DNA of 64,000 bases. Source: Saccharopolyspora rhizosphaerae. GTDB lineage: Bacteria > Actinomycetota > Actinomycetes > Mycobacteriales > Pseudonocardiaceae. This document shows, in pieces, positions 1,073-41,060 of the stretch. The notes beneath the pieces are model-generated. The model ran no database searches. It was not told where the DNA came from and worked only from the letters and a program-made list of their open reading frames with translations. The translations under genes and the position numbers were made by a program. Position 1 is the first letter of the stretch. Every line of letters begins with the position of its first letter. The stretch covers positions 124,001 to 188,000 of the forward strand of contig NZ_RSAA01000001.1 of NCBI RefSeq assembly GCF_003931915.1. The letters are read 5' to 3'.

Positions 1073-1210
1073 GCGGTGCGGGTGGCAGGTCCTGAGCGGC
1101 TCCGCGGTCTCCGCGCGCCGCTCCTTGAACAGTTGTCGTGCACGGCGTCTCGGCGTACTCGCCACGAAACCGCTCAGGGCCTGCCGCGGTGCAAGGGGGT
1201 CCCGCATGTG
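1073..1210 (+). repeat. Dispersed intergenic inverted repeat, copy 1
   Basis: Full-length copy of an approximately 138-base element found elsewhere in this window. The left arm (TGGCAGGTCCTGAGCGG near 1083) pairs with the right arm (CCGCTCAGGGCCTGCCG near 1170). A conserved interior carries CGCCGCTCC and GGCGTACTCGCCACGAA. It starts 16 bases after the stop of the MpaB-like gene. There is no open frame worth calling and no transposase nearby. Confidence 0.8.
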
Positions 1211-5738: not shown

Positions 5739-6407
5739 ATGAGGGCGACCGACGTGGTGGGAGTGCTCGTGGTCGACGACCACGCGATCGTGCGCCGGGG
5801 CCTGCGCGCTTACCTCGACTCCGAGCCTGCGCTGAAGTTGCTCGGCGAGGCCGTCGACGGGCAGGACGCCGTGGAACGGCTGCAGCAGTGGCGCGTCACC
5901 GGCGCCCGCATGCCGGACGTGGTCCTGATGGACCTGCAACTGCCCAAGATGGACGGCATCGAAGCGACCCGGGTCGTCGTCCGCGACCACCCCGAGGTCA
6001 AGGTGGTGGTGCTGACCAGCTTCGGCGAGGCCGAGCGGGTGCACGCCGCCCTGGCCGCCGGTGCCGCTGGCTACGTCCTCAAGGACGCCGACCCCGACGA
6101 GGTGGCCACCGCCATCCGCGCCGCCGCCACCGGCGAGGTCCACCTCGACTCGGCCGTGGCCCGCCAGCTCGCCCGCCGGATGGCCGCACCTCGGACCGGG
6201 TTGAGCTCGCTGACCACCCGCGAGCGCGAAATCCTCGTCCTGGTGGCGCAAGGGCTGTGCAACCGCGAGATCGCCGAGCACCTCGTCATCAGCGAACGCA
6301 CCGCCCGCACCCACGTCTCCAACCTGCTCGGCAAGCTCCAACTGTCGTCGCGGACCCAAGCGGCCCTGCTCGCCATCCGGGAAGGCCTCGTCGCCCCGCC
6401 CACCTGA
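5739..6407 (+). CDS. NarL/LuxR-type response regulator
   Basis: A 222-residue regulator. The receiver domain has the acidic pair Asp13-Asp14, the phospho-acceptor Asp65 in VVLMDLQLPKMDG, the switch threonine in VVVLTSFGE and the lysine in GYVLKDADP. The C-terminal LuxR helix-turn-helix is LTTREREILVLVAQGL followed by NREIAEHLVISERTARTHV. ATG 5739 sits 8 bases after GGAGGAAGGAG; GTG 5730 is too close to it. It is the partner of the kinase at 4201 and may control the downstream hydrolase and ligAB genes. Confidence 0.87.
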   Translation: MRATDVVGVLVVDDHAIVRRGLRAYLDSEPALKLLGEAVDGQDAVERLQQWRVTGARMPDVVLMDLQLPKMDGIEATRVVVRDHPEVKVVVLTSFGEAERVHAALAAGAAGYVLKDADPDEVATAIRAAATGEVHLDSAVARQLARRMAAPRTGLSSLTTREREILVLVAQGLCNREIAEHLVISERTARTHVSNLLGKLQLSSRTQAALLAIREGLVAPPT

Positions 6408-6554
6408 CCGCGGCGGCGGAAGCGACGGATGACGTAGCCGGGGCCGCCGCAACGGCGGTGGGTGTGGCGACAGCCGTCGGATCTCCGGCGGGGGGCGGGT
6501 TCGTAGGTTCGTCGCCAGGACGACGTTCCCGACCGGACAGGGAGATCCACGGGC

Positions 6555-7265
6555 ATGGACGAGACCTTCGTGCTGGTGCACGGGGCCTGGCACGGCGGTT
6601 GGTGCTGGGACCGGGTCGCCCCGCTGCTGCGCGAGGCCGGCCACGAGGTGCACGCGCCGACGCTGACCGGCCTCTCCGAGCGGTCCCACCTGATCTCCCC
6701 GCAGGTCGGCCTCGACACCCACACCGAGGACGTCGTGCGCCACATCGACGTGCTCGGGCTGCGCGACGTCGTCCTGGTCGGCCACAGCTACGCGGGCCAG
6801 CTGGTCACCGCCGTCGCCGACCGGCGCCCGGAAGCGCTGTCCCGCCGGGTCTACCTCGACGCGTTCGTCGGCGCCGACGGCGAAGCCGCCTGCGACCTGC
6901 TGCCGGAGCAGGTCCGCCACCACTGGGCCGAATCGGCCCTCACCGACGGGTTCGGCTGGATGGTGCCGCCGCGTTCCCTGGCAGTGCTGGGAGTCAGCAA
7001 GACCGAGGACGTCGACTGGCTCACCCCGAAGCTCACCCCGCACCCGTGGAAGACCTACACCGACCCGCTGCGGCTCACCGGAGCCGGGGCCGAGGTGCCC
7101 GCGGTGTTCGTCGAGTGCGTCGACTGGATGCGGGTCTTCCGCGCCCACGCCGCCCGCGCGCACGCCCGGGGCTGGCCGGTGCACGAGCTCAAGACCGGCC
7201 ACGAAGCCATGGTCACCGCCCCGAGCGAACTGGCCGACACCCTGCTCGACATCGTCCGGACCTAG
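6555..7265 (+). CDS. Alpha/beta hydrolase (esterase / hydroxynitrile-lyase-like)
   Basis: A 236-residue alpha/beta hydrolase. The oxyanion segment FVLVHGAWHGGWCWD is at residues 5-19, the nucleophile elbow GHSYAG near 76, and the catalytic histidine is expected in the C-terminal KTGHEAMV. Small single-domain members of this subgroup include salicylate-ester esterases and hydroxynitrile lyases. The start has GGGAG about 12 bases upstream. Located between the two-component system and the ligAB trio, it may release an aromatic acid from an ester or open a lactone, but the sequence does not decide this. Confidence 0.75.
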   Translation: MDETFVLVHGAWHGGWCWDRVAPLLREAGHEVHAPTLTGLSERSHLISPQVGLDTHTEDVVRHIDVLGLRDVVLVGHSYAGQLVTAVADRRPEALSRRVYLDAFVGADGEAACDLLPEQVRHHWAESALTDGFGWMVPPRSLAVLGVSKTEDVDWLTPKLTPHPWKTYTDPLRLTGAGAEVPAVFVECVDWMRVFRAHAARAHARGWPVHELKTGHEAMVTAPSELADTLLDIVRT

Positions 7266-7327
7266 TTCCTCGTGGGGAGGAACGGTGCTGCCGAACCAGG
7301 CCCGCGCACCCCGCGGCCACCTCAGAA

Positions 7328-7493
7328 TTCGCGCGAAGCTCGTACCGGAGCGCCCCGCCGAAGTTCTCGCGGAGTTCGAGGCCCGAAGTTCCGCGTCGAA
7401 CTCGTCGCGAAGTTCGACACCGGGAGCTCCCCGTCGAACTTCTCGCGGAGTTCGAGGCCCGAAGTTCCCCCTCGAAGCTCTCGCGAAGTTCGA
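7328..7493. repeat. Array of GAAGTTC-like palindromic words, about two 76-base units
   Basis: The gap 7266-7579 is filled with variants of GAAnTTC and GAGnTC. Two tandem units start at 7359 and 7435 (period 76). Each carries TCTCGCGGAGTTCGAGGCCC, then GAAGTTCC, then TCGCGAAGTTCGAC. Further words (GAATTC, GAAGCTC) lie just upstream. Because the words are near self-complementary the transcript can fold in many ways. Several frames stay open through the array on both strands, but their serine/arginine-rich products look like repeat translation, not genes. It lies immediately upstream of the isomerase-ligA-ligB genes. Confidence 0.75.
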
Positions 7494-7579
7494 CGGGGTC
7501 CCAGGCGGCGCCACCGCCCCCGGGCTGCTGGTACCCGCTGGGCACAGCAACCCCTCTACGAACACCGAGGAGGAGTGAC

Positions 7580-7861
7580 GTGGAGTTCTTGGTCCGGTCG
7601 GAGAACCGGTTGCCGCCCGACACGCCGGAGGAGGAGCGGGCTGCGCTGAAGAGCGCCGAACGCGCTCGGGCCGTGGAGCTGCGGGAAGCCGGGGTGCTCA
7701 AGCGGCTCTGGCGGGTGCCCGGCCGCAACGCCACCGTCGGCCTCTACGAGGCCGACGACCCGGCGCAGCTGCACGAGGCGCTCATGTCGCTGCCGATGGC
7801 GCCGTGGCTCGACGTCATCGTCGAGGTCCTCGCCACCCACCCCCAGGAGGCGCAGACATGA
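7580..7861 (+). CDS. Muconolactone delta-isomerase-like protein
   Basis: A 93-residue protein, the usual length of muconolactone isomerase (CatC family). Family-like features are the opening VEFLVRSENRLPPD, the basic helix EERAALKSAERARAVELREAG, LKRLWRVPGR, GLYEADDPAQLHEAL and the ending SLPMAPWLDVIVEVLATHP. GTG 7580 follows GAGGAG at 5-7 bases. Its stop overlaps the ligA ATG by four bases, indicating one transcript. In the beta-ketoadipate pathway this fold isomerises muconolactone after 1,2-cleavage of catechol. Its pairing here with an extradiol 4,5-dioxygenase is unusual, so it may act on a different lactone or tautomer. Confidence 0.82.
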   Translation: MEFLVRSENRLPPDTPEEERAALKSAERARAVELREAGVLKRLWRVPGRNATVGLYEADDPAQLHEALMSLPMAPWLDVIVEVLATHPQEAQT

Positions 7862-8208
7862 CCGGCGACGACGTCCCCGCGACCTACGTCTTCGACGGAC
7901 GTGCCGGACGCCGCGGCTACCGGCTCAACAAGATGCTCATGACCTTCCGCGACCCGGCGGCCCGGCAGCGCTTCCTCGACGACGAAGCGGCCTACTGCGA
8001 CGAGTTCGGGCTCACCGACTCGCAGCGCACCGCCGTGCTGGTCCGTGACTGGCGCGCGCTGTGCGACGAAGGCGGCAGCATCTTCCACGTCTTCAAGCTC
8101 GCGATGGTCGACGGCAGGTCGATGCAACACCTCGGCGCCGCCTTCACCGGCATGACCGAGGACGAGTTCGTGGCGATGATGCGCGCAGGCGGGAGGACCG
8201 ATGGCTGA
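7858..8208 (+). CDS. ligA: Protocatechuate 4,5-dioxygenase alpha subunit
   Basis: A 116-residue LigA-family small subunit. Matching features are YVFDGRAGRRGYRLNKMLM, the FLDDEAAYCDEFGLT helix, VLVRDWRALCDEGGSIFHVFKL and the C-terminal GMTEDEFVAMMRAGGR. In LigAB enzymes this subunit caps the active site of LigB and contributes to substrate binding. ATG 7858 overlaps the isomerase stop by four bases, and its own end overlaps the ligB start by eight bases, so the three genes are translationally coupled. It is shorter than the Sphingobium protein (139 residues) at both ends. Confidence 0.88.
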   Translation: MTGDDVPATYVFDGRAGRRGYRLNKMLMTFRDPAARQRFLDDEAAYCDEFGLTDSQRTAVLVRDWRALCDEGGSIFHVFKLAMVDGRSMQHLGAAFTGMTEDEFVAMMRAGGRTDG

Positions 8209-9073
8209 AGTGATCTGGGGACTGGCGACGTCCCACGTCCCGTCGATCGGCGCCGCCATGGACGGCGGCAAGACCCAGGACCCGTACTGGAAACCGCTGT
8301 TCGACGGCTACCGCCCGGCGCGCGAGTGGATGGCCGAGCACATCCCGGACGTGGCGCTGGTGGTCTACAACGACCACGCCAACGCCCTGGACGTCGACGT
8401 GGTGCCGACCTTCGCCCTCGGCACCGCCGAGCGCTACCCGGTCGCCGACGAGGGTTTCGGCCCACGCCCGGTGCCCGACCTGCTCGGTGCCCCCGACCTC
8501 TCGCTGCACCTGCTGGAGCGCCTCGTCGACGACGGTTTCGACATGACCGTGCTGCAGCACCTCGAGGTCGACCACGGATGCACCGTCCCGCTGTCGGTGT
8601 ACTGCCCCGAACCCGGCGACGCCTGGCCGTGCGCGGTGATCCCGCTGCTGGTCAACGTCATCCAGCACCCGCAGCCCACCGCCGCCCGCTGCTACGCCCT
8701 CGGCAAGGCCATCGGACGCGCCCTGCGCGAGGACCCCGGCGACACCACGGTCGCGATCTTCGGCACCGGCGGGATGTCGCACCAGCTGGCCGGATCCCGC
8801 GCGGGGTTCATCAACCCCGAGTTCGACCGGATGTTCCTGGACAAGATCGAAACCGACCCGGAGCACCTGGCCGGTCTGTCCCGCGCCGACTACGTCGCCC
8901 AGGCGGGCTCCGAGGGTTTCGAGCTGGTCATGTGGCTGATCATGCGCGGCGCGCTCTCCGAGCAGATCACGCGGGTGCACGACGTCTACCACGTCCCGGC
9001 CTCCAACACGGCCGCCGGGCTGGCGCTGTTCGACAACTCCGGCGTCAGCGCAACCACAACGCGGCAGCCGTGA
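8201..9073 (+). CDS. ligB: Protocatechuate 4,5-dioxygenase beta (catalytic) subunit
   Basis: A 290-residue extradiol dioxygenase of the LigB family. The non-haem iron ligands known from LigB are present: His12 in LATSHVPS, His59 in VVYNDHAN, and a glutamate in GSEGFELVMW (238-241). The catalytic-base histidine is at 194 in TGGMSHQL. The conserved blocks VDHGCTVPLS and VYHVPASNTA are intact. With LigA it would open protocatechuate or a close relative (gallate, methylgallate) between C4 and C5. The 3' end overlaps the convergent amidohydrolase gene by 29 bases. The usual downstream 4,5-pathway genes (ligC, ligI, ligJ, ligK) are absent from the window. Confidence 0.88.
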   Translation: MAEVIWGLATSHVPSIGAAMDGGKTQDPYWKPLFDGYRPAREWMAEHIPDVALVVYNDHANALDVDVVPTFALGTAERYPVADEGFGPRPVPDLLGAPDLSLHLLERLVDDGFDMTVLQHLEVDHGCTVPLSVYCPEPGDAWPCAVIPLLVNVIQHPQPTAARCYALGKAIGRALREDPGDTTVAIFGTGGMSHQLAGSRAGFINPEFDRMFLDKIETDPEHLAGLSRADYVAQAGSEGFELVMWLIMRGALSEQITRVHDVYHVPASNTAAGLALFDNSGVSATTTRQP

Positions 9074-10298
9074 CCAGCGCCGCCGAGGCGCGCAGCAGGG
9101 TCGGCTCCAGGCCGGTGGGCACGAACTCGGGGGAGTGGTTGCCCGGCGCCTTCCCCGCCGCCACCGCCGAGTTCGGCTTCGCCGGGTCCGGGTAGAGCGC
9201 CGGGTCGAAACCGCCGAAGTTCCAGAAGACCGACGGCACCTCGGCCGCGGCACCGAACACGCCGAAGTCCTCGCTGCCCGCCTTCGCCGGGGGTTCGTGC
9301 ACGAACTCGGCGCCGAACTGCTCGGTGAAGGCGTCCGCGATGCGCAGGGCGGCCTCGGAGTCGTTGACCAGCAACGGGAACCCGTTGATGGGCTCGATGT
9401 CGGGCTCGCGCGGTGCCCCGGCTGCGGCGGCCTCGTGCCGCACGATGCGCCGGATGCAGTCGAGCACGCGCTCGCGCACGTCAGGGTCGAAGGTGCGCAC
9501 GTTGAGCGTGAGCTCGGCGGTGGTGGGGATGACGTTCTCCTTGCCGCCCGCGTGCACCGCGGCCACCGTCACCACCGCGACGTCGTCCGGTGAGATCTCC
9601 CGGGCCACGACGGTCTGCAACCGCAGCACGGTGGAGGAGGCGATCACGATCGGATCGACGGTGGCCTGCGGTTGCGCGCCGTGCCCACCCCGGCCGTGCA
9701 CGGTGACCCGCAGGCTGTCGGCGGCGGCCATGAACACCCCGGGACGCACGTACAGGTGCCGGCTGGGTGCGGAGGCGATGTGCTGGCCCAGCGCCACGTC
9801 GAAAGCCGGGAAGCGCTCCAGGAAACCGTCGTCGATCATCGCCTGCGCGCCCCCGCCGCCCTCCTCGGCCGGCTGGCACACCGCCAGCAGGGTGCCGGAC
9901 CAGGAATCCCGGTGGGCGGCGAGCTGTTCGGCGGCGCCGATCAACGCCGCCATGTGCGTGTCGTGGCCGCACGCGTGCATCACCGGCTGCTCGGTGCCGT
10001 CGGCGGCCACCCCTGTCGCGGTGCTGCGGTAGGGGACGGCCTCGACCTCCTGGATCGGCAGCGCGTCCATGTCCGCGCGCAGCAGCACCCCGGGCCCCGG
10101 GCCGTTGCGCAGCACCCCGACCACGCCGGTTCCGCCGACACCGGTGGTCACCTCGTAGCCGGCCGCCCGCAGCCGCTGCGCCAGCACCCCGGCGGTGCGC
10201 ACCTCCTGGAACGACAGCTCGGGGTGGCGGTGCAGGTCCTCGCAGAGCTCGCGGACCCCCGTGATGCGCTCGTCCAACCCGGCCAGCAGACCCGACAT
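9045..10298 (-). CDS. M20-family amidohydrolase (N-acyl amino acid / hippurate hydrolase type)
   Basis: A 417-residue metallo-amidohydrolase. The metal-binding blocks are ACGHDTHM (about 110-117), CQPAEEGGGGA, and the late KAGSEDFGVF; the dimerisation domain begins near GRGGHGAQPQATVDP. Family members cleave N-acyl groups from amino acids such as hippurate, indole conjugates or N-acetyl amino acids. The ATG at 10298 is preceded by GGGAG. It overlaps the 3' end of ligB on the opposite strand. If it releases aromatic acids from conjugates it could feed the ring-cleavage genes, but that is speculation. Confidence 0.85.
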   Translation of the reverse strand: MSGLLAGLDERITGVRELCEDLHRHPELSFQEVRTAGVLAQRLRAAGYEVTTGVGGTGVVGVLRNGPGPGVLLRADMDALPIQEVEAVPYRSTATGVAADGTEQPVMHACGHDTHMAALIGAAEQLAAHRDSWSGTLLAVCQPAEEGGGGAQAMIDDGFLERFPAFDVALGQHIASAPSRHLYVRPGVFMAAADSLRVTVHGRGGHGAQPQATVDPIVIASSTVLRLQTVVAREISPDDVAVVTVAAVHAGGKENVIPTTAELTLNVRTFDPDVRERVLDCIRRIVRHEAAAAGAPREPDIEPINGFPLLVNDSEAALRIADAFTEQFGAEFVHEPPAKAGSEDFGVFGAAAEVPSVFWNFGGFDPALYPDPAKPNSAVAAGKAPGNHSPEFVPTGLEPTLLRASAALVTAAALWLR

Positions 10299-17492: not shown

Positions 17493-17630
17493 GCGGTGCG
17501 GGTGGCAGGACCTGAGCGGCTTCGTGGACTCCGTGCGCCGCTCCTCGAGCATTCGATCCGTGTCGTCACGGCGTACTCGCCACGAAGCCGCTACGAACGG
17601 CGGCGGTGCCGGCTGACTCCCACACCTGAC
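17493..17630 (+). repeat. Dispersed intergenic inverted repeat, copy 2
   Basis: Near-consensus copy. The left arm is GGCAGGACCTGAGCGGCTTC, the interior CGTGCGCCGCTCCTCGAGC, the right side GTCACGGCGTACTCGCCACG then AAGCCGCT, and the tail CGGTGCCGGCTGACTCCCAC. It lies between the start of the LacI gene and the stop of the next minus-strand regulator. The right arm has lost its final CAG pairing. Confidence 0.8.
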
Positions 17631-19243: not shown

Positions 19244-19382
19244 AGGTGTGGGACTCACCTTGCACCGCCGCAGGTTCTGAGCGGTTTCGTGGCGAGTACG
19301 CCGTGACGACGCGTGTTCGAAAGCTCGAGGAGCGGCGCACGGAGACCACGAAGCCGCTCAAGCCCTGCCACCCGCACCGCTG
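19244..19382 (-). repeat. Dispersed intergenic inverted repeat, copy 3
   Basis: The best-preserved copy, in reverse orientation. Read on the minus strand it has GGCAGGGCTTGAGCGGCTTC, CGTGCGCCGCTCCTCGAGC, GTCACGGCGTACTCGCCACG, AAACCGCTCAGAACCTGC and the tail GGTGAGTCCCACACCTGG. The two arms pair over most of their length, so the whole element can fold into one long imperfect hairpin. It lies just past the stop of the winged-helix gene at 19409. Confidence 0.85.
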
Positions 19383-33131: not shown

Positions 33132-33800
33132 TCAGCGCCCCAGCAGCGGATCGGTGAGGCCCTCGACCACACCACCGACCAGCGGGAGCAGGCCCGGCTT
33201 CGGCTCGGAGGGCTGGGTGGGCTCCGGGGTCTCGCCGGGCTCGGACGGCTGGGAGGGTTCCGAGGTCTGCGTCGGCTCCGAGGTCTGCGTCGGCTGGGAG
33301 GTCTGCGTCGGCTGGGAGGTCTCCGGCGGCGGAGCCGGCTGGGAGGTCCGCGTCGGCTCGCTGGTCGGCTCCGGGGTGCTGGTGGCCGACGGGGTGCTCG
33401 TCCGCGAGGCCGAGGTCGACGTCGGCGAGCGGCGCTTCGCCGTGGTCTCCGGGGCCGCGCGCTCCGTGGAGGTGGTCACGGCCGGAGGCGGTGAGGCCTG
33501 GGCCGAGGAAGTCGGTGCGGGCGGGGCGATCGGCACGACCGGCGGAGCGGTCCCGGTGCCGCCCGGCTGCAGCTGCGGCAAGTACTGCCGGGTCGGCGCG
33601 GAGGCCTGCGCACGCGCCGCGTTGGCCGGGTCCGGCGTCGCGGCCTGCTCGGCGCGCGTCTGCGAGTAGTGCGCGCTGGTGACGGCGATGACGGCCAGCA
33701 CCGCCGCGGTGGTGTAACCGAGCACCGGTGCGGTGTACCGCCACGCGATGCCACGCCGGTGGCGCCCTCGTGCGGTCCGCGCCAACGACGACCTGCCCAC
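33132..33800 (-). CDS. Pro/Thr/Ser-rich membrane-anchored protein with SQPTQT repeats
   Basis: A 222-residue protein. A basic cytoplasmic head (residues 1-22) is followed by a single membrane segment, VLGYTTAAVLAVIAVTSAHY. The outer part is low-complexity Pro, Thr, Ser and Ala; residues about 160-200 repeat SQPTQT, SEPTQT and SEPSQP units. It ends in LLPLVGGVVEGLTDPLLG. This looks like an extended cell-wall-spanning stalk, possibly O-glycosylated. No enzymatic domain. GTG 33800 start. Confidence 0.7.
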   Translation of the reverse strand: MGRSSLARTARGRHRRGIAWRYTAPVLGYTTAAVLAVIAVTSAHYSQTRAEQAATPDPANAARAQASAPTRQYLPQLQPGGTGTAPPVVPIAPPAPTSSAQASPPPAVTTSTERAAPETTAKRRSPTSTSASRTSTPSATSTPEPTSEPTRTSQPAPPPETSQPTQTSQPTQTSEPTQTSEPSQPSEPGETPEPTQPSEPKPGLLPLVGGVVEGLTDPLLGR

Positions 33801-40935: not shown

Positions 40936-41060
40936 GGCGGTGCGGAGGGGACCTGAGCGGCTCCGCGGAGTCCGTGCACCGCTGCGGGCGCACGGCATCC
41001 GGTGGACTCACCGCGAAGCTGCTCAGAACCTCCGGCGGTGCAGGCTGAGCCCCCACCTCG
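40936..41060 (+). repeat. Dispersed intergenic inverted repeat, copy 4 (diverged)
   Basis: It contains GGTGCGGAGGGGACCTGAGC, GGCTCCGCGGAGTCCGTGC, then a shortened interior, CTCACCGCGAAGCTGCTCAG and the tail CGGTGCAGGCTGAGCCCCCA. The interior has lost about 10-15 bases relative to copies 2 and 3. It lies between the convergent permease and TetR genes. Confidence 0.75.

Follow-up and report, generated by a model that had tools for sequence, protein, structure and literature searches.

What is a dense cluster of GAAGTTC-like palindromic words doing between an esterase gene and the isomerase-ligAB genes of Saccharopolyspora rhizosphaerae, and does it serve those genes? The cluster lies at 7328-7493 of the window (the whole stretch analysed, 64,000 nt, G000:C10:124001-188000 of a 5.82-Mb draft genome; Table 1). 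We put a probability of about 0.72 on the reading that this array arose by local amplification of one member of a REP/BIME-like palindrome family restricted to Saccharopolyspora, which would have spread, persisted at gene ends and grown in tandem as proposed below. The family is dispersed and nearly always intergenic; the orthologous operons lack it, and in the window species it has multiplied locally.

Table 1. Features of the array, its host operon and the second palindrome family (window positions unless a genome is given).
Feature	Position	Strand	Details
Alpha/beta hydrolase (esterase) gene	6555-7265	+	PF12697, 1.3e-19; directly before the array in the split operon
Esterase-isomerase gap, 314 nt	7266-7579	+	Lineage-specific insertion; 1-57 nt in six orthologous operons
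Decayed palindrome 0	7322-7343		TCAGAATTCGCGCGAAGCTCGT; 17/22 match to the family pattern; 36 nt 5' of palindrome 1
Tandem pair of 76-nt copies, one palindrome pair each	7347-7498	+	64/76 identity from 7347; TRF
Palindrome 1	7358-7379		20/22 match; first in the 38-nt register
Spacer, 16 nt, GGCCCGAAGTTCCGCG	7380-7395	+	GAAGTTC at centre
Palindrome 2	7396-7417		20/22 match
Spacer, 16 nt, degenerate	7418-7433	+	From the array anatomy
Palindrome 3	7434-7455		21/22 match
Spacer, 16 nt	7456-7471	+	GAAGTTC at centre
Palindrome 4	7472-7493		21/22 match
Muconolactone delta-isomerase-like gene	7580-7861	+	PF02426, 3.4e-30; downstream of the array
ligA	7858-8208	+	PF07746, 6.5e-35
ligB	8201-9073	+	PF02900, 1.3e-67
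AGTTTTCATGAAAACT family loci L104-L123	G015 contig C19		e.g. L123, 2881-3230

The array contains four palindromes of 22 nt at an exact pitch of 38 nt (7358-7493), with the family consensus TCGAACTTCGCGCGAAGTTCGA; the spacer consensus is CGCCCGAAGTTCCCCG (24 family copies). The half-sites TCGAAC and GTTCGA of the palindrome consensus equal the half-sites of the actinobacterial LexA box, but with 10 rather than 4 bases between them. GAAnTTC occurs six times in 7328-7493 (0.03 expected from the rate in the rest of the window) and GAGnTC three times (0.45 expected from the same rate), and any other 160-nt stretch of the window holds at most two GARSTYC words. A preliminary description of this DNA had counted about a dozen GAAnTTC or GAGnTC words; strictly there are nine, the dozen being reached only with the near-matches GAACTC and GAAGCTC, but the dense cluster is real. 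The 76-base tandem duplication that it reported was confirmed by TRF (period 76, 2.3 copies, 85% matches, 7320-7494), which also gave a period of 38 with 3.9 copies over the array. The two 76-nt halves are identical at 64 of 76 positions, and repeat finding in the array gave three 72-nt copies at spacings of 38 and 38. The expectation that RNA with such self-complementary words is prone to hairpins also held: the predicted fold of 7320-7500 is -92.8 kcal/mol on the + strand (z -4.9) and -91.4 kcal/mol on the - strand (z -3.1), and on neither strand was any of 200 dinucleotide shuffles as stable.

A coding origin of the array was rejected, the 38- and 76-nt periods not being multiples of 3 and no gene being called there. 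A CRISPR array was rejected as well: the repeats are palindromes and two of the three spacers have GAAGTTC in common, where identical repeats with unique spacers would be expected. Rfam gave no match above the gathering cut-off in window 6500-9100, where three miRNA-family matches reached about 22 bits and the cut-offs are 90. A scan of 7200-7650 detected no sigma-70-like promoter, though such a scan is weak in DNA this rich in GC (expected 0.0). Elsewhere in the window, at 33200-33330, there is a tandem array with a period of 18/36/54 nt, a multiple of 3, which is perhaps coding.

The array is one of many copies. With the array alone as query, blastn found at least 86 matches in at least 40 places of the window genome, its own array included (matches within 1 kb merged; best 40 of 200 candidates scored). 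The preliminary description had proposed control specific to ligAB, to be abandoned if the same array stood beside unrelated genes genome-wide, and a genome-wide word search did find the palindromes beside unrelated genes. Counted with up to three mismatches, there are 303 palindromes in the window genome (G000), 180 in S. endophytica (G016), 36 in S. dendranthemae (G001), 7 in G007, 1 in G009, 0 in G012 and 1 in G015, and the reversed-pattern control gave 0 everywhere except 1 in G007. Exact matches to TCGAANTTCGCGCGAANTTCGA number 42, 134 and 12 in the first three, so that by these whole-genome counts the exact share is 42/303 in the window species and 134/180 in S. endophytica.

A covariance model built from 24 copies was run on 22 genomes of the genus, with both strands counted, so that sites are fewer than matches. 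It gave at least 147 matches in the window genome and at least 150 in S. endophytica (150 candidates scored in each), 27 in S. dendranthemae, 7 in G007, 2 in G009 and 1 in G012, and none in 16 of the 22 Saccharopolyspora genomes. Palindromes 3 and 4 of the window array make up the match G000:C10:131430-131497, whose 86.4 bits are third best among the window-genome matches listed, this copy being itself one of the 24 used to build the model. With stricter filters, G000 and G007 were the only ones of 120 family genomes to give a model match, and none of 393 other class genomes contained the exact pattern. A scan of named genomes with another exact pattern, which may omit records closely similar to the window genome, gave matches only in S. 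dendranthemae DSM 46699 and S. endophytica KCTC 19397 (9 stretches). The array with its flanking genes, compared with 61 genomes, gave weak array overlaps outside the genus (G028, 1.7e-4; G048, 9.4e-4), which we take as chance, as we do the one match in plasmid records (44 nt, in a haloarchaeal oxidoreductase gene); phage records gave no match to the repeat. The family thus has many copies in the window species and S. endophytica, fewer in S. dendranthemae, and traces in a few congeners.

To place these copies relative to genes, we used a codon-usage gene caller whose training set was this window and whose calls were inspected on the first 14 kb of it. At 57 loci of the window genome, the 68 junctions with an element are 39 convergent, 25 tandem and 3 divergent, with 1 inside a called gene (intergenic at 67 of 68), vs 24 convergent, 107 tandem and 47 divergent junctions without it at the same loci (Fisher p 8e-12 for convergent). 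The corresponding convergent/tandem/divergent counts at 43 loci of S. endophytica are 23/18/2 with and 18/83/26 without the element (Fisher p 8e-7), and at 24 loci of S. dendranthemae 14/9/1 and 17/81/31; L175 and L210 show one and the same junction in the latter species, and removal of the duplicate leaves 13/9/1 vs 17/81/31 (Fisher p 2e-5). The element is nearer to the upstream stop codon in 20 of 25 tandem gaps of the window species, 17 of 18 of S. endophytica and 9 of 9 of S. dendranthemae, at median distances of 193, 30 and 24 nt, respectively; because of the 193 nt, "just after the stop" does not describe the window species. In all three species, the palindrome family is over-represented in convergent gaps, and its copies in tandem gaps tend to lie towards the stop codon.

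Seven orthologous gaps have a family element in more than one species: L032/L160/L174 is common to three species, and L059/L190, L063/L170, L089/L185, L043/L180, L091/L178 and L157/L173 are each common to two, so that much of the movement may be old. The L157/L173 pair, from S. endophytica and S. dendranthemae, has matching flanks, but the 16-nt spacer in one species is, by eye, approximately the reverse complement of that in the other. Eight of 12 S. endophytica sites on contig C29 could be placed in S. dendranthemae, L204, L184, L205 and L207 having no clean placement. The family palindrome is present in both species at L203, L152, L206, L160 and L158; the S. dendranthemae counterpart of L190 is a shortened related hairpin (17/22 at best), L208 has no family palindrome there, and the counterpart of the L209 pair (L200) is a long hairpin of unrelated sequence, as if hairpins at gene ends are replaced over time. 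Five window-genome sites on contig C10 (L044, L045, L093, L039, and L051) were placed in the syntenic genome G015, where all five gaps are shorter and without the family palindrome. By eye, four site pairs showed no clear target-site duplication of the kind that marks a MITE with terminal inverted repeats.

In the G015 counterpart of L051 there are five copies of a different palindrome, AGTTTTCATGAAAACT; by eye, a near copy of AGTTTTCATGAAAACT stands in the counterpart of L045 and a plain hairpin in that of L039. A 400-kb portion of G015 contains 15 exact copies of AGTTTTCATGAAAACT, three with one mismatch and three with two (reversed control 0), and their spacing, where within 150 nt, is not 38 but 46 to 110. 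The 12 called junctions with AGTTTTCATGAAAACT are 6 convergent, 4 tandem and 2 divergent, none inside called genes, vs 62, 227 and 63 without it (p 0.012 for convergent), and at all 4 tandem junctions it is nearer to the upstream stop. Elsewhere it was found 0 times in the G000 loci (324 kb), 0 times in G016 (235 kb) and 7 times in G001 (311 kb, overlapping loci included). Congeners thus carry different palindrome families at their gene ends, and one and the same gap can be taken by either family.

These findings bear on the reading that the copies are ordinary bidirectional terminators sharing sequence by chance. Their stop-side and convergent placement is what such terminators would show, other hairpins stand in orthologous gaps (L200 in G001; L109, L116, and L123 in G015, the latter by eye), and AGTTTTCATGAAAACT is similarly placed in G015; its copies in an orthologous gap raised our estimate for this reading slightly. 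Nevertheless, termination needs neither a common sequence that includes the loop nor an exact pitch, and the window genome shows no covariation. The window gap has no U-tract either: 0 U-tract terminator sites were found in 7200-7650, and classic intrinsic termination at the array is not indicated. We regard chance-alike terminators as possible but doubtful.

A second dispersed repeat of about 107 nt with near-inverted ends (module B) was seen at window positions 1095-1192, 17515-17616 and 19262-19358, and in part at 40993-41048. It has 43 blastn matches in the genome, mostly away from the palindrome family, and its first copy sits in an unaligned stretch of about 700 nt vs 34 nt in the syntenic G015. 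Module B was rejected as part of the palindrome element, 10 of the 12 B loci fetched being without a palindrome within about 1.5 kb.

The usual family unit consists of two palindromes of 22-24 nt whose starts are 38 nt apart around a 16-nt spacer. All 38 sampled pairs of S. endophytica (37 loci) are at 38 nt. The mean majority-base frequency there is 0.99-1.00 in the palindromes, with the centre as constant as the arms, 0.73 in the spacer and about 0.5 in the flanks, and 67 of the 76 sampled palindromes are TCGAATTTCGCGCGAAATTCGA; these loci are mostly best model matches, which favours intact copies, while the genome-wide 134/180 is free of that bias. Of 81 neighbouring palindromes within 60 nt in the window genome, 59 have the 38-nt spacing; the palindromes there have a majority-base frequency of 0.87-0.89, and exact C/G palindromes account for 12 of 118. 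The species have dialects at one stem pair, changed on both sides, T-A vs C-G (TCGAATTTC..GAAATTCGA vs TCGAACTTC..GAAGTTCGA), and the dialect of S. dendranthemae is mixed (TA 9, TG 7, CA 5, CG 2, and others 4 among 27 distinct palindromes).

In the window genome, neither arm covariation within single palindromes (139 distinct palindromes) nor covariation between the two palindromes of a pair (56 elements) was above shuffles, and because arm covariation is absent there, a role for RNA structure is unsupported in this genome. Compensated changes numbered 7 vs 18, a deficit that is not evidence against pairing, since the palindromes were picked by total mismatches, which disfavours double changes. 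Pairing of palindrome 1 with palindrome 2 was 0.80 vs 0.75 shuffled in S. dendranthemae (1 and 2 of 1000; 10 elements) and borderline in S. endophytica, which has little variation (0.988 vs 0.985; 53 of 1000). In the latter species, spacer pairing was below shuffles and outer-flank complementarity not above them; the single copies L165 and L152 form long arms. The invariant centre, the fixed pitch and these pairing results would favour recognition of the DNA sequence over selection for an RNA fold, at least in S. endophytica.

Such recognition could mean that the pair is a fixed-pitch site for a dedicated DNA-binding protein, serving chromosome organisation or gene-end insulation, under selection and co-evolving with the protein. 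The invariable 38-nt spacing in S. endophytica with variable spacer and flanks and a centre as constant as the arms, the T-A, C-G and mixed dialects, and the orthologous sites common to species all speak for it. However, 16 of the 22 genomes of the genus are without a model match, and the palindrome is decayed in the window species (42/303 exact); we think such a site unlikely. A bolder version, to which we likewise give a low chance, is that the 38-nt-pitched pair may be a gene-end DNA mark with a dedicated putative reader protein in a small Saccharopolyspora clade, its dialects co-evolved and other congeners using different marks at comparable positions (AGTTTTCATGAAAACT in G015), and that relaxation in the window species may have led to decay and local satellites, one of which splits a catabolic operon.

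The preliminary description had also raised the possibility of a growing satellite, and this is partly right: there is local expansion in the window species, but the unit itself is a genus-level palindromic repeat. Gaps with at least two separate palindrome blocks make up 22 of 68 in the window species, 5 of 43 in S. endophytica and 0 of 23 in S. dendranthemae, and the median element-bearing gap is 573, 195 and 119 nt, respectively. Several window-species gaps contain tandem copies of about 200-300 nt that include the element (by eye, with similar flanks), and at the three-species site L032/L160/L174 the gap is 900 nt in the window species vs 137 and 107 nt. The window array is a milder case of this growth, with duplication at the 38- and 76-nt level. 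That the family is a purely neutral minisatellite, grown in tandem by slippage with no mobility or role and with remnants as its dispersed copies, would agree with these tandem periods, with the multi-block gaps, and with arms that vary independently in the window genome. Slippage is, however, not expected to give one consensus over 68 examined gaps, nor the gene-end bias in three species and the near-invariance in S. endophytica, and we judge this account quite improbable.

With the copy number and its growth in hand, the host operon itself can be considered. The array had been described as lying directly before the isomerase-ligAB genes, which is literally true, yet orthologs show that it stands inside an operon, after the first gene, that of the esterase (orthologs of 88-90% in G015 and G016). 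The orthologous esterase-isomerase gaps measure 42 nt in G015, 11 in G016, 1 in G054, 1 in G051, 12 in G006 and 57 in G014, and no family palindrome (at least 18/22) was found in the 3-4-kb loci of these six operons. Because the six gaps are so short and without the palindrome, vs 314 nt here, the array must have been inserted into the operon in this lineage specifically. G015 and G016 keep the response regulator, the esterase, the isomerase, ligA and ligB, all without the array. A ligB match at E <= 1e-40 was found in 5 of the 22 Saccharopolyspora genomes, G000 included, and since G001 carries the repeat without such a match, repeat and operon are independently distributed. The array is not a dedicated switch for the catabolic operon. 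In practice, it splits the operon and should not be modelled as the operon promoter.

The multi-site operator or structured leader proposed for isomerase-ligAB, bound for instance by the LuxR-family response regulator at 5739 (of the two-component pair upstream of the array), has the dense symmetric words, the strong predicted fold and that pair in its favour, but is very improbable: the same palindromes stand at no fewer than 40 scored places, G015 and G016 retain both the regulator and the operon yet have no array, and a further four orthologous junctions are also free of it. As concerns the leader, the array is in mid-operon and arm covariation in the window genome does not exceed shuffles. 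Because the operon is conserved without the array and six orthologous junctions lack it, the role of the regulator at 5739 as a binder of a ligAB operator is unsupported.

Coming back to a locally amplified member of a dispersed family, the course of events might have been as follows. Some trans-acting factor that recognises the palindrome pair at the DNA level would have spread the elements, which may persist at gene ends where the double hairpin does no harm or serves as a terminator or other 3'-end structure, and which could be swapped there for another palindrome over evolution. One copy would have entered between the esterase and isomerase genes in the window lineage and grown there as units of 38 and 76 nt were duplicated in tandem, probably through replication slippage at the hairpin. 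As to function at the esterase-isomerase locus, we infer that the array transcript, with its very stable predicted structure (-92.8 kcal/mol), would lower or process read-through into isomerase-ligAB rather than sense a signal.

A Y1_Tnp/RAYT enzyme as the mover was sought in vain, its distribution not tracking with the repeat: there is one Y1_Tnp gene each in G000 and G016, none in G001, and 19 matches in G006, which has no element. The repeat was also absent beside Y1 genes in three stretches fetched from the window genome and S. endophytica. At L065 (G000:C5:20123-20470) there is a lone IS200-type Y1 transposase-like gene, with an HUH motif altered by eye and no repeat beside it. Reportedly, the REPINs that Bertels and Rainey described in 2011 go with RAYT transposases and have paired conserved ends, a more variable spacer and species-specific populations. 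The window family likewise has paired conserved ends, a variable spacer and species-specific sequence populations, but it differs in having no RAYT-like Y1 transposase that tracks with it. As no such gene tracks with or adjoins the repeat, identity with REPINs was rejected. The DNA-uptake-sequence terminators of Neisseria have species dialects and paired copies at gene ends; the window family is alike in its dialects and gene-end pairs, with far fewer copies.

The closest likeness is to the REP/BIME elements. According to Di Nocera et al. (2013; PMC3733652), the GTAG and CGTC super-families are extragenic 20-40-nt palindromes in high copy number, usually located near 3' ends and between genes that converge or run in the same direction; they are often paired and can fold together, some spacers vary in sequence with similar length, and CGTC REPs are without a dedicated transposase, how they spread being an open question. 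The main text of that paper has no mention of Saccharopolyspora, Streptomyces, Actinobacter- or Actinomycet-. The window family is similarly short (22 nt), high in copy number (303 and 180 in two species), extragenic, at gene ends, convergent-biased and paired. It differs in having no unpaired GTAG or CGTC tag: the flanks are near a majority frequency of 0.5 in both species, and the letters CGTC in the consensus of the window species overlap the stem. It is moreover a full palindrome with an exact 38-nt pitch, found here only in one actinobacterial genus. REP-like DNA in Actinomycetota is not new, because RepRanger, which defines REP-like sequences broadly, lists them by the thousand for each of three Actinomycetota (PMC12306157); Saccharopolyspora has 0 occurrences in that paper. 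A literature search of titles and abstract openings gave no palindromic repeat family reported in Saccharopolyspora. Close species here offer sites with and without the element, two dialects of it, one gap filled by an unrelated palindrome instead, and one species in which the element is breaking down into satellites, and because of such contrasts the dispersal, the maintenance and the expression effect of RAYT-less REPs are directly testable in this genus. The best reading of the palindrome family is that of a tag-less, RAYT-less variant of the REP/BIME type, tolerated or used at gene ends.
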